DNA of 20,115 bases from positions 1-20,115 of the IMG/VR virus record IMGVR_UViG_3300037628_000315; one strand, given 5' to 3'. Shown one piece after another: positions 7,422-20,115 of the stretch (position 1 is the stretch's first letter; the number at the start of each line of letters is the position of its first letter). The position numbers and the translations under genes were made by a program. The notes beneath the pieces are model-generated. The model searched no databases, was not told where the DNA came from, and saw only the letters and a program-made list of their open reading frames with translations. The stretch comes from a virus.

Positions 7422-7867
7422 CAACTGACGCGATTTTAACAATTGACCCCACGAGCGGGCTTTATGACATTAGCATCGATGCCAACGGTGATATTGCCAA
7501 CGATGATTTTTTTGATACGTCGATTTTATACGCGCTTTATGGTGAAAAACGGGCGGCACCGGAAGAAGTTTCTAGTGCTGAATTGCGCCGGGGCTGGATT
7601 GGTAATCGTGAAGACTTTGAAAACGGCTCTAAATTATGGTTACTTTCACAATCACGACTTACACGCGACACGTTAAATAGGATTGAAGATGAGGCTAGAA
7701 AAGCGCTTCAATATCTTGTTGACGACGGCTTAGCGGTGTCTATCGATCAAGTAACGGCGGGAATAAATAACGGCGCGGTAACACTTGTTATCACTATTCG
7801 GCGCTCTCTAGATCGAGTAGAACGTAAATTTTACACATTATGGGAGAATACAGGCCGTGGCGCTTAA
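7418..7867 (+). CDS. Baseplate wedge protein gp46 (Mu GP46 / gp25-like), 149 aa
   Basis: This protein belongs to the Mu GP46 family, the wedge component that joins sheath to baseplate (analogue of T4 gp25 and P2 gpW). Family features include FFDTSILYALYGEKRA, then RRGWIGNREDFENGSKLWLL near residues 58-77 and EARKALQYLVDDGLA near 92-106. The short acidic N-terminus ILTIDPTSGLYDISID is also typical. The length is normal. It overlaps the spike gene by four bases and baseplate J by 11 bases, so the block is translated as a coupled unit. Confidence 0.9.
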   Translation: MTTDAILTIDPTSGLYDISIDANGDIANDDFFDTSILYALYGEKRAAPEEVSSAELRRGWIGNREDFENGSKLWLLSQSRLTRDTLNRIEDEARKALQYLVDDGLAVSIDQVTAGINNGAVTLVITIRRSLDRVERKFYTLWENTGRGA

Positions 7868-9167
7868 TATTCCAGAAACGGCAGCAGAGGTTGACGACCG
7901 GGCCAAGGCGGACGTTCAACGCGAGCTTGCCCAGTCTAACCCTTTCTTAAAAAATAGCTGGTTAGGCGCTCTCGTCACTGCCTACAGTAATAGAATTTTT
8001 GATTTTTACATTCAATTAAATATCGCTATTCGAGAGAATTTCCCAGACACCGCAACCGGTGATTTTTTGATTCGCTGGGCGGCCATTTGGGGTAAGCAAA
8101 TAACCCCCGCAACGCAATCTAACGGCAACGTTGTAGCGACTGGTGTTGCTAGTTCAAGCATTCCCAATAATACGATAATGACTGTTGCTGATGTTGGGGA
8201 ATTTATCACTACGTCTCTCGCAACTATTAGCGACCAAAGTTTATCGATAACCGATTTAACAAGATCGGGCACCACCGCAACGGCTTTATTCCCGACTGAT
8301 CACAACTTAGCAAGCGGCGTTACTGTCACGGTGGTCAATGCGAGCAATACAGAATATAACGTCACCGGCATCATCACTGTGGTTTCTGCCACTAGCTTTG
8401 AATATCAAATTACAGGGACACCTCCAGACGAGCTGGGAACGTCCGCCTTTGCTCAATTTACAACCGCGTCTGTTCCGGTAACGTCCGTTGATTTCGGTGA
8501 CGATTTTAATTTAGACGCTGGAACACAATTAACATTACAAAGCCCTATTGCGGGCGTTGACGACATACTGACCGTTGATTTCGGGGCAATTGGTGGCGGC
8601 ACTGGTGACGAATCGGACGACTCTCTACGTGCTCGAATGTTGGATAGAATACAAAACCCAGTGGCCCACTTTAACTCTGCTGATATTATCGAAAAAGCAA
8701 AAGAAGTAGCGGGAGTAACACGGGTTTTTGTGCAAAAGGTTACGCCATCGCTGGGCGAGGTAACAATTTATTTTATGCGAGACAATGACTCTAACCCCAT
8801 TCCGTCGGGTAGCGAGGTGACGACTGTTAAAAATAAAATCCTTGAGATAACGCCAGCTAATACGGGCGATGCCCAGGTTTTTGTATTCGCTCCAACTGGC
8901 GTTGATGTCGATTTCACTTTTACCGCTTTAGACCCAAGCACAGCATCCATGCAATCGTCAATTAATGCAAACCTTAGACAGTTTTTTGATGAGCGTACAG
9001 AAGTTGGCGTAGATATCGAAGAAGACGCGTATAGATCCACCATTTTTAATACTGTGGACACTGAGACCGGCGCGCTAGTTTCATCATTTACGCTGTCGGT
9101 TCCATCGGGTGATATTACCATTGCGTCCGGCGAAATTGGAACATTAGGGGCGGTTGTCTATCCATGA
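7857..9167 (+). CDS. Baseplate J protein (Mu gp47-like) with an inserted beta-domain, 436 aa
   Basis: Baseplate wedge protein of the Baseplate_J family (T4 gp6 / P2 gpJ relatives). The N-terminal helices (residues 1-80) include ARIENFPDTATG-like RENFPDTATGDFLIRWAAIW, and residues 246-268 carry the family signature GGGTGDESDDSLRARMLDRI. The C-terminal domain includes QFFDERTEVGVDIEEDAYRS. Residues about 128-205 are an extra beta-rich segment (HNLASGVTVTVVNASNTEYN, ATSFEYQITGTPP) of the Ig-like module type found in many phage structural proteins. It explains why this protein is longer than Mu gp47. The gene starts at 7857 with a gtGGCGC context (GTG) overlapping gp46, and its stop overlaps the next ATG. 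Confidence 0.92.
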   Translation: MALNIPETAAEVDDRAKADVQRELAQSNPFLKNSWLGALVTAYSNRIFDFYIQLNIAIRENFPDTATGDFLIRWAAIWGKQITPATQSNGNVVATGVASSSIPNNTIMTVADVGEFITTSLATISDQSLSITDLTRSGTTATALFPTDHNLASGVTVTVVNASNTEYNVTGIITVVSATSFEYQITGTPPDELGTSAFAQFTTASVPVTSVDFGDDFNLDAGTQLTLQSPIAGVDDILTVDFGAIGGGTGDESDDSLRARMLDRIQNPVAHFNSADIIEKAKEVAGVTRVFVQKVTPSLGEVTIYFMRDNDSNPIPSGSEVTTVKNKILEITPANTGDAQVFVFAPTGVDVDFTFTALDPSTASMQSSINANLRQFFDERTEVGVDIEEDAYRSTIFNTVDTETGALVSSFTLSVPSGDITIASGEIGTLGAVVYP

Positions 9168-9694
9168 TTTTATTCCAAAAGCGGGACATAGAACGTTATA
9201 CAGACAGCTTGGCGGCATACTTGCCAGGGGGCATACTATTCGCTATTAAGTCTTTCCAAGATAGCAATTTTAGAAAACTGTTACGCGGGCTTGCTGGCGA
9301 GTTATTTAGATCTAACGGGTTATTAATCGAGTATAGCGACGAGATTTTACCCGATACCACGGAGAAATTTCTAGGTGAGTGGGAATCCGCTTTGAAGCTG
9401 TCGCCGGGGCCTGGTTATTCTAGTTCTGATCGTCGGCGTGACATTCTAGTTAGGCTTGCCTCTTCGGGCGTACAATCAAATAAAGATTTTGTGGAATTGG
9501 CCGCTATTTTTGGCGTACCTATAACTATAACGGGCGACACTTACACTATTACAATCGGGGTAAATATACCTCTTGCTGAAACTTTCCCTTTAGAATTCCA
9601 GATAAATTTCGGTAGCGCTGAAATAGAGTTGCTTCGAGGCCTGTTCGAGAACCTAATTCCGGACAATTGCGAGCTGGTAATAATTCAACTTTAA
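9164..9694 (+). CDS. Tail protein gp48 (Mu gp48-like, DUF2313), 176 aa
   Basis: The DUF2313 family lies directly after baseplate J in Mu-type and P2-type tails (position of P2 gpI) and connects the wedge to the tail fibre. Family motifs are DRYTDSLAAYLPGG-like RYTDSLAAYLPGGILFAIKS at residues 10-29, LPDTTEKFLGEWESALKLSP near 63-82 and DRRRDILVRLAS near 91-102. The start ATG at 9164 overlaps the previous stop (ATGA). It is followed after 10 bases by the fibre gene. Confidence 0.9.
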   Translation: MILFQKRDIERYTDSLAAYLPGGILFAIKSFQDSNFRKLLRGLAGELFRSNGLLIEYSDEILPDTTEKFLGEWESALKLSPGPGYSSSDRRRDILVRLASSGVQSNKDFVELAAIFGVPITITGDTYTITIGVNIPLAETFPLEFQINFGSAEIELLRGLFENLIPDNCELVIIQL

Positions 9695-9704
9695 AAGGTG
9701 ATCA

Positions 9705-10961
9705 ATGCAACTACTAAATGACAAAATCGATGGTTCGGGAAGTCCTGAAAATGTGCTAACCGCTGCGGAGTGGAACCAGCTACCCACCGAGATACAAAAT
9801 ATAATCACTACGCTAGGTTTATCGCTATCAAACGGTGATTTAAACCAGTTAGGCAAGGCTTTAGCGGGTTATGTTGCTAACGGTGCGTTTTACACTGACA
9901 GCGGCACAGCCAATGCTTACGTGTTAACCCCGCTAAATGGTAAACAAGCGCCACCAGCGTATACAGACGGCACGCGCGTCGAATTTGTTACGACTAACCC
10001 AAACATAGGGGCTTCAACTGCTAACGCTGCTGGAATTGGCCTTAAAAATATAAAATTACAGGACGGCAGCGACCCGGCAGCAGGAGATATTAACGGCAGA
10101 ACCATACTTAAATTTGATGACGCAAATGATTGGTTTGAGTTAGAGCTAATAGAGACAGTATCGTGGGCGGGGTGGCTTCTTGACAATGCGTTTTATACTG
10201 ATGTGAGCCACGACGTTTCGTCAGAAGACACCGAACCCTCAGGCGTTTTCTTCAAGCCTGACGGCACCAAAATGTACCTGGTCGGAGACAGCAACAACAG
10301 AATTTATCAATACTCTCTTTCGACCGCTTGGGATCTGAGCACCCTAAGCTATGACTCTGTTTCCATTTTGTCGCAGGACACCGCGCCCCAAGGCGTTTTC
10401 TTTAAGCCTGACGGAACCAAAATGTACCTGGCAGGACTAGGCAGCGGCAATATTTATCAATACTCCCTTTCAACCGGTTGGGATTTAAGTACCGCGAGTT
10501 ATGATTCTGTTCTTCTTAATATTACGCCAGACGCCGTTGGAGTAACTGGCATTTTCTTCAAACCTGACGGCGAAAAAATGTATCTGGTCGGATTCACCAA
10601 CGATAATGTTTATCAATACTCCCTTTCAACCGGTTGGGATCTAAGCACAGCGAGCTATGATTCAGTTTTCTTTGATATTTCGTCAGAAGACACCTCCCCC
10701 TCAGGCGTTTTCTTCAAGCCTGACGGAACCAAAATGTATATTAGCGGAGACAGCAACAACAGAATTTTCCAATACACGCTTTCAACCGCTTGGGATCTGA
10801 GCACCCCAAGTTATGACTCCATTAGTCACTATGTTGGCCTGGAGGATACTAGCCCGCAAGGCGTTTTCTTTAAGCCCGACGGCGTAAAAATGTACATGAT
10901 AGGGAGCCTCAACGATAACGTTTATCAATACTCAACAGGCAGACCGTACCAAGGGTCCTAA
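9705..10961 (+). CDS. Tail fibre / receptor-binding protein with C-terminal five-repeat beta-propeller, 418 aa
   Basis: The start ATG at 9705 follows AAAAGGTGATC. Residues 1-55 (MQLLNDKIDGSGSPENVLTA, then QLPTEIQNIITTLG) are typical of fibre proteins that attach to the baseplate, and residues 60-150 form a second beta-rich module. Residues 167-418 are five tandem repeats of 50-52 residues with GVFFKPDGTKMYLVG, YQYSLSTAWDLSTLSYDS and similar. The last repeat lacks its final strand, and a matching strand (WLLDNAFYTD, residues 157-166) stands before the first repeat, as in a closed propeller. Host recognition is inferred from position. No fibre-assembly chaperone gene follows; the endolysin comes next. 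Confidence 0.85.
   Translation: MQLLNDKIDGSGSPENVLTAAEWNQLPTEIQNIITTLGLSLSNGDLNQLGKALAGYVANGAFYTDSGTANAYVLTPLNGKQAPPAYTDGTRVEFVTTNPNIGASTANAAGIGLKNIKLQDGSDPAAGDINGRTILKFDDANDWFELELIETVSWAGWLLDNAFYTDVSHDVSSEDTEPSGVFFKPDGTKMYLVGDSNNRIYQYSLSTAWDLSTLSYDSVSILSQDTAPQGVFFKPDGTKMYLAGLGSGNIYQYSLSTGWDLSTASYDSVLLNITPDAVGVTGIFFKPDGEKMYLVGFTNDNVYQYSLSTGWDLSTASYDSVFFDISSEDTSPSGVFFKPDGTKMYISGDSNNRIFQYTLSTAWDLSTPSYDSISHYVGLEDTSPQGVFFKPDGVKMYMIGSLNDNVYQYSTGRPYQGS
10203..10958 (+). repeat. Five tandem in-frame repeats of about 156 bases in the fibre gene
   Basis: Units begin at 10203, 10359, 10509, 10665 and 10821 (52, 50, 52, 52 and 46 codons). The core GGCGTTTTCTTCAAGCCTGA and the codons for GTKMYL are conserved at DNA level, so unit gain or loss by recombination is plausible. 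Confidence 0.95.
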
Positions 10962-10964
10962 TTC

Positions 10965-11510
10965 ATGACACTAAAAACAGACCTAATAAACGCGGTAATA
11001 GACATTGAGGGCGGCTATGTGAACGATCCCGATGATAGTGGTGGCGAAACTAACTACGGCATAACCTCGACCGCTGCGAAAGAGCACGGCTATACCGGCT
11101 CAATCGGGGCAATGCCGCTGTCTGTTGCTGTTGATATTTACGAAGAAATGTATTGGCATGCAATACACGGTGATTCGATTGTAGAAATGTCGCAAATAGT
11201 AGCCGCTGAAGTTTTTGATACGGCGGTTAACACAGGGGTTCACAGGGCATCGATATTTTTGCAAAGGGCGCTGAACGTTCTTAACGACCGTGAGCGGCTT
11301 TATCCGGACATTAAAACAGACGGCGCTATTGGTCCTAATACTATCAATGCGCTGCGGTGTTACGTTAGGCGACGTGATGCGGCTGTTATGGTAACTGTTC
11401 TCAACGCAATGCAGGGCGCGTTTTATGTAGAGCTTGCGGAACAGCGAGAAAAAGACGAAAAATTTCTTTATGGTTGGATTAAAAACAGAGTGGAGGTAAC
11501 AAATGATTAA
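10965..11510 (+). CDS. Endolysin, glycoside hydrolase family 108 with PG_binding_3 domain, 181 aa
   Basis: Muralytic enzyme that cuts peptidoglycan at the end of infection. Residues 1-90 are the GH108 domain: the EGGY motif at 15-18 holds the predicted catalytic glutamate (E15), followed by VNDPDDSGGETNYGIT. Residues about 95-175 form the C-terminal peptidoglycan-binding domain (GAIGPNTINALR). There is no signal peptide or N-terminal anchor, so export needs a holin from the genes just downstream. The length is normal for the family. The stop overlaps the start of the next small gene. Confidence 0.93.
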   Translation: MTLKTDLINAVIDIEGGYVNDPDDSGGETNYGITSTAAKEHGYTGSIGAMPLSVAVDIYEEMYWHAIHGDSIVEMSQIVAAEVFDTAVNTGVHRASIFLQRALNVLNDRERLYPDIKTDGAIGPNTINALRCYVRRRDAAVMVTVLNAMQGAFYVELAEQREKDEKFLYGWIKNRVEVTND

Positions 11511-19619: not shown

Positions 19620-20115
19620 ATGCACTACTACAAGAGAAACATTGGCGACTATCACAAAAAAGCGGGACGGCTAAGTATGCTTCAGCACGGAGCGTACACG
19701 CTTTTGATAGATTCGTGCTATGACCGTGAGAAATTCCCGACGAAAGAAGAGGCGATTGATTGGGCCTGGGCTTCATCTTTAGATGAAATTGAAGCGGTAG
19801 AGTTCGTTCTAAAAAAGTTTTTTAAGCTTGAAGATGGCGTTTATATTCAAAAGCAAATAAAGGAAAATGTTTGTAAGTATCAGGCGAATTCATTAACCAA
19901 TAAGCGCATTGCTGTAGATAGAGAAAGGAAGCGTAGAGAGACGAATGGTAAAGAAAAAGGAACGGATTGTGATGATAAAAGCACGGTTCGTGCACAGAGC
20001 GTTAACGAACCTCCACCCAACCATAAACCATTAACCAATAACCATAAACCATTAACCAATAACCTAAGTAAAAAACAAGCAAAAAAAACCGATGTTGATT
20101 ATTCAGTTTTTGATG
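19620..20115 (+). CDS. DUF1376 phage replication protein, N-terminal part; 3' end cut by window
   Basis: ATG 19620 follows TATAGGAGAATAA. Residues 1-90 (HYYKRNIGDYHKKAGRLSML, then HGAYTLLIDSCYDREKFPTK, DGVYIQKQIKENV) match the DUF1376 domain found at the N-terminus of phage initiator proteins of the lambda O type. Residues 97-105 are strongly basic (VDRERKRRE). Residues 134-148 are the tandem NHKPLTN-NHKPLTN repeats, encoded by phased 7-base repeats. The remaining C-terminal part lies beyond the window. Confidence 0.85.
   Translation, partial: MHYYKRNIGDYHKKAGRLSMLQHGAYTLLIDSCYDREKFPTKEEAIDWAWASSLDEIEAVEFVLKKFFKLEDGVYIQKQIKENVCKYQANSLTNKRIAVDRERKRRETNGKEKGTDCDDKSTVRAQSVNEPPPNHKPLTNNHKPLTNNLSKKQAKKTDVDYSVFD
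20019..20067 (+). repeat. Seven phased 7-base repeats AACCNNN (two 21-base units), possible iterons
   Basis: Heptamers AACCATA, AACCATT, AACCAAT, AACCATA, AACCATT, AACCAAT, AACCTAA run without gaps. Three heptamers form a 21-base unit that repeats once. They lie inside the replication gene, where lambda-like phages carry their origin. Confidence 0.85.

Follow-up and report, generated by a model that had tools for sequence, protein, structure and literature searches.

A Mu-like phage tail fibre ends in a predicted five-bladed beta-propeller that is likely a horizontally acquired receptor-binding tip

What does a phage gain from a tail fibre whose C-terminal end is built of five near-copies of one unit? 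The window, by which we mean the whole 20,115-base virus record analysed here, carries a Mu-like tail module with a GpP/Gp44-like hub, baseplate J, Gp48, a fibre ORF and a GH108 endolysin. The baseplate J-like protein (7857..9167, + strand) was recognised by Pfam PF04865 at 4e-41, and the Mu Gp48-like baseplate protein (9164..9694, + strand; PF10076 at 6e-13 and PHROG 203, baseplate wedge) lies immediately 5' of the tail-fibre ORF of 418 aa (9705..10961, + strand). On the other side stands the endolysin (10965..11510, + strand; PF05838 at 2e-22 and PF09374 at 4e-21). A PHROGs search with the fibre protein gave weak or unnamed matches only. Short, weak matches of its N-terminal 156 residues to engineered or repeat proteins among the PDB sequences were set aside. 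The right end of the window also holds tandem AACCATT-like 7-mers, 6.6 copies at 20019-20064.

The original prediction placed five repeats of 52 residues at 10173-10958, which correctly corresponds to residues 157-418 of the fibre. There are indeed five units, each anchored by FFKPDG (residues 182, 232, 284, 336 and 388). Their spacings are 50, 52, 52 and 52 residues, so unit 1 falls two residues below the stated 52. The repetition is also seen in the DNA, with four copies of 142 nt (75-89% identity) and five copies of 91 nt (66-80% identity), and the TRF scores of 498-674 are well beyond chance. Units 1-4 are each followed by WDLSTxSYDS, which unit 5 lacks, and a diverged version of it, WLLDNAFYTD, stands 5' of unit 1, both as originally described. 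With a blade HMM derived from 1987 blades, residues 157-179 fell on positions 30-52 (9.4 bits, which is weak, yet in register) and the last blade of the fibre fell on positions 1-31; therefore, the two pieces together make one whole blade. A separate feature of this region is a 35-nt direct repeat at 9864-9898 and 10167-10201, 71% identical, where GYVANGAFYTD of the shaft resembles GWLLDNAFYTD of the velcro strand. This resemblance could be accidental, or it could be left over from the recombination event by which the tip was joined.

In the fold that we propose, the fibre C-terminus would form a closed five-bladed ring with a four-stranded sheet in each blade, and the outer strand of blade 5 would come from the N-terminal side and shut the ring. 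The alignment given to AlphaFold2 comprised 71 sequences, namely the window protein plus 70 modules taken from viral contigs. The model of the fibre reached a pLDDT of 96-98 across most of residues 161-410, with residues 54-132 at low confidence, and the domain modelled alone had a mean pLDDT of 95.4 and a pTM of 0.92. DSSP assigned 20 strands to the models in the order D'-(ABCD)x4-ABC, in agreement with the four-stranded antiparallel blades of the beta-propeller superfamily, and assigned both terminal strands as hydrogen-bonded. The velcro strand, strand D of blade 5, is a DSSP strand in both models at residues 163-170 (10191..10214, pLDDT ~97) and would pair with strand C of blade 5. Strands A-D of blade 1 span residues 178-222 (10236..10370), blade 2 residues 228-272 (10386..10520), blade 3 residues 280-324 (10542..10676) and blade 4 residues 332-376 (10698..10832), while blade 5 has strands A-C only, at residues 384-410 (10854..10934); all are on the + strand. 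We infer ring closure from the strand assignment, the model confidence and the structural matches. Structure prediction had been suggested as a check, and it gave a 20-strand, five-blade domain at high confidence rather than an open solenoid. The C-terminal ~260 residues of the fibre are thus strongly predicted to be a closed five-bladed beta-propeller.

The matches of this domain point to a known lineage. Foldseek against the PDB gave propellers as its top matches, with seven-bladed lactonase and WD40 types first and 6-phosphogluconolactonase-type propellers among them, and the best of these superposed in part only (rmsd 5-7 A, TM ~0.5). In a viral library, the best match was a protein of Lentibacter phage ICBM2 with an rmsd of 1.5 A and 56% identity. 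The Pfam matches above cut-off were SGL (6e-12) and Lactonase (1e-6), and the nearest solved relative by sequence was 1l0q, at 7e-13 with the single sequence (phmmer) and 1e-15 with the profile (hmmsearch). The YVTN propeller has seven blades. The blades of the fibre are homologous to those of the YVTN/lactonase-type lineage, but there are five of them rather than seven.

Next, the variation among blades was compared by face. The DA and BC loops make up the top face by propeller convention. Over the 71 sequences, mean entropy was 2.40 bits for the DA and BC loops against 0.97 bits for the AB and CD loops, with a p value of 3e-15 that is indicative only since alignment columns are not independent. 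Between the window blades, dN was 0.65 on the top face and 0.12 in the remainder, and a fast top face on a slow remainder would fit a binding face. Conventional dN/dS on the window blades showed no positive selection (top face 0.55, rest 0.19), and a pooled top-face dN/dS of 1.95 is biased, the pairs having been chosen for low synonymous difference, and is a hint only. A fast-evolving receptor-binding domain had been suggested; variation is concentrated on one face as this would imply, positive selection did not appear, and binding itself is a reading that we infer.

Recent duplication of the units had also been suggested. Where the window blades share a residue, a synonymous difference was found at 22% of codons, against 57-60% in comparisons with foreign blades. 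The within-protein synonymous divergence of the window was the 10th lowest when set against 293 other proteins (9/293 lower). This suggests that amplification or homogenisation of the blades is more recent here than usual, although blades 1 and 4 are the only pair that looks very recent, so the suggestion holds in a relative sense only. Gene conversion and duplication would be indistinguishable as the cause of such similarity.

One alternative is that the propeller is an enzyme at the tip, either lactonase/gluconolactonase-like or a glycan-degrading depolymerase, and not a pure binder. Many phage tips are depolymerases, and both the SGL and Lactonase matches and the 6-phosphogluconolactonase-type propellers among the top PDB matches are consistent with an enzyme. 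However, the Pfam matches probably reflect the PDGxKxYV motif that is repeated in the blades. The nearly invariant residues (F+1, D+4, G+5, Y+21, L+23, T+25 and D+28) for the most part occupy matching offsets in several blades and seem structural, and no asymmetric, catalytic-like conserved residue stood out in the alignment. Nor would blades so nearly identical be expected of an enzyme that has one active site. We regard an enzymatic tip as unlikely.

As to its position in the fibre, the ring is an exchangeable tip, probably a horizontally acquired one, on a conserved fibre base. The base comprises residues 1-146 (9705..10142, + strand), with N-terminal helices and a shaft-like domain, and is 41-74% identical in eight fibres of related phages that have other tips. 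Residues 62-147 match the 'major tropism determinant' of Pseudomonas phage AH02, the N-terminus of which is Mtd_N. In the close relatives (L159/L213, L160/L214, L161 and L162), DNA identity of ~70-74% extends from the baseplate genes to 10139-10142, at fibre residues 145-146; the L162 match stops at 9970 in DNA but continues to residue 146 in protein. The tip cassette, residues 147-418 (10143..10958, + strand), has no similarity to these relatives, which carry unrelated tips in its place. Where the contig reaches, DNA similarity returns at 10960-10965, at the endolysin that forms the 3' border of the cassette. This replacement supports the original description of the domain as a fibre tip, and the ORF has the layout of a tail fibre, encoded after the baseplate genes of the tail module with a conserved base and an exchangeable C-terminal tip.

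The tips of L159, L161 and L162 share more with one another than with the window tip, with L159 and L161 alignable as far as residue ~285. Therefore, the window propeller is probably the newcomer, gained by replacing a tip that the close relatives still carry. More distant relatives have the same base with other tips: a weak C1q match in L164 (0.004, below cut-off) and an S74 endosialidase chaperone in L165. Another relative (L163:4001-6468) has two tandem fibre genes, 66% identical, after Gp48. In other phages, the neighbours of propeller genes match tail-fibre and baseplate PHROGs, and chaperone genes also adjoin them.

A second alternative gives the propeller a structural part, as spacer or platform, and leaves host contact to another protein, a second fibre or an adhesin. 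The propeller of phi11 Gp45 is such a platform, followed by a tower (PMC4901313), and several relatives bear further domains or have two to three rings in one protein. In the window protein, however, only ~8 residues lie beyond the ring, the ring is exactly the part exchanged in close relatives, and one of its faces is hypervariable. A spacer role is accordingly improbable here.

The reading that we favour is a receptor-binding tip, because of its position, its exchange, its one variable face, the fact that no asymmetric active site is evident, and the precedents. The DA/BC-loop face would grip a repeated structure on the cell surface, probably a glycan and probably through several equivalent sites, with the fibre possibly a trimer and the tip serving in adsorption. 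Taken together, we consider it likely that the tip of this Mu-like phage fibre is a horizontally acquired, five-bladed, receptor-binding propeller, probably one that binds glycans.

Comparison of repeat number in related phages had been proposed as a further check, and it was made with a single blade as the query so that five-repeat proteins were not favoured. Viral sequences gave 145 repeat modules, 130 with 5 units, 5 with 10, 1 with 15 and 9 with other numbers. Exactly 5, 10 or 15 units were thus found in 136/145, and multiples of five also in 100/109. The N-terminal half blade was detected in 122/136 five-multiple modules (independent set). On inspection, most of the exceptions had a diverged blade below threshold or a truncated frame, and L113 may be a true four-unit module. 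GTDB genomes (SAR11 for the most part, plus some MAGs of Patescibacteria and archaea) gave 61 modules, of which 39 had five units; the other 22 were weak or partial detections. Gaps in uninterrupted 10-unit arrays were ~51 residues, except for the fifth, which was usually 55 (~4 longer). This longer gap between units 5 and 6 marks the ring boundary and would be expected of velcro-closed rings placed in series. The number five is therefore kept in relatives, and this census and the model with a pTM of 0.92 both support the original prediction of a five-bladed propeller closed by a velcro strand.

It is very improbable that the units form a solenoid-like or otherwise open array, or a ring of another blade number (for example, via oligomerisation): the best PDB matches do include seven-bladed propellers, and single-motif propellers could in principle close by oligomerising (PMC4735018), but 94% of modules are multiples of five, a longer gap follows each fifth unit and the N-terminal half blade complements the C-terminal truncation, and with the model confidence the census and the boundary gap ruled out an open-ended array.

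The survey also turned up several unusual arrangements. Contiguous runs of 10 or 15 blades occur in the proteins L052:2884-5289, L015:2506-4677 and L063:2839-5007. Apparent arrays of paralogous propeller genes occur in L008:131-3373, L022:1604-4799, L030:2914-7152 and L057:2803-7344, where three or four ORFs lie side by side, often overlap and encode one or two five-blade rings apiece. A six-unit array in a Patescibacteria MAG (L169:2559-7163) is apparently a true exception to five. Related five-blade proteins in SAR11 (Pelagibacteraceae) single-cell genomes (most of L174-L201) could be host, prophage or viral contamination.

Five-bladed propellers in phage receptor-binding proteins are already known. 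We found no description of a strictly five-bladed, YVTN/lactonase-like family of fibre tips in the literature, with most subscription journals and preprints outside the coverage, and no paper with the motif FKPDGTKMY in the full-text literature. Such a family, common in viral metagenomes and marine viruses, seems undescribed. A broader proposal, which we offer tentatively, is that this is a large, strictly five-bladed and mostly marine receptor-binding family in which a single blade is re-amplified and then diversifies chiefly in its top-face loops, with 5, 10 or 15 blades to a protein and with paralogous fibre genes set next to each other in runs. If true, it would be a repeat-based route to new host specificity without a diversity-generating retroelement. 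The results give a fold and a likely role to widespread phage proteins that are annotated 'hypothetical' or left nameless, and they show tip exchange cleanly in the fibre of a Mu-like phage. They also offer a natural setting where blade amplification, the size of the ring and diversification of the binding face are readable from the DNA. If the variable face binds, specificity would be traceable to a few loop positions per blade.

Among known systems, Gp45 of the Staphylococcus aureus phage phi11 comes close in architecture, with five blades of four strands and a blade 5 made of an N-terminal strand and three C-terminal strands (PMC4901313). It is a phage host-recognition protein, the role that we propose for the window protein, and it has the blade number and velcro closure predicted there. 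The propeller of phi11 Gp45 (residues 142-439) is a mid-protein platform with a helical stem and a C-terminal tower, whereas that of the window is the C-terminal tip and, unlike Gp45, has near-identical blades. Single-sequence and profile searches gave no significant match between the two. PRD1 P2, with five blades, and phiKZ gp131C, with seven, are propeller precedents cited in the same work (PMC4901313).

The protein AYP28110.1 (A0A3G2YRG7) of Lentibacter phage vB_LenP_ICBM2 belongs to the same family, with 56-57% identity across the propeller, models that superpose at 1.5 A, five blades and an N-terminal half blade. It differs in coming from a podovirus, in having another N-terminal domain, and in being annotated as hypothetical and located among tail-assembly chaperone genes. 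The region of the ICBM2 genome that holds the propeller gene is described as coding for tail fibres (PMC6775973). In ICBM2 (L208:2875-6879), two large hypothetical proteins, the propeller being one, are interspersed with genes for tail-assembly chaperones, and each of the two may have a chaperone of its own.

The archaeal S-layer YVTN propeller (1l0q) and the lactonase/SMP-30 propellers have the PDGxKxY blade motif in common with the window, but they are cellular and have blade numbers other than five (seven in lactonases). Tachylectin-2 resembles the window propeller in its five similar blades, velcro closure and tandem-duplication origin (PMC4735018), but it is an animal lectin with ~47-residue motifs and sugar sites between blades, and it gave no sequence match in a search with the window protein. 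The recently amplified beta-propellers described in 2022 were, like that of the window, built by amplification of a single blade, and the terms phage and five-bladed are absent from the main text of that study (PMC9218822). Finally, beta-propeller lectins occur on the fibres of contractile injection systems (PMC12923769).
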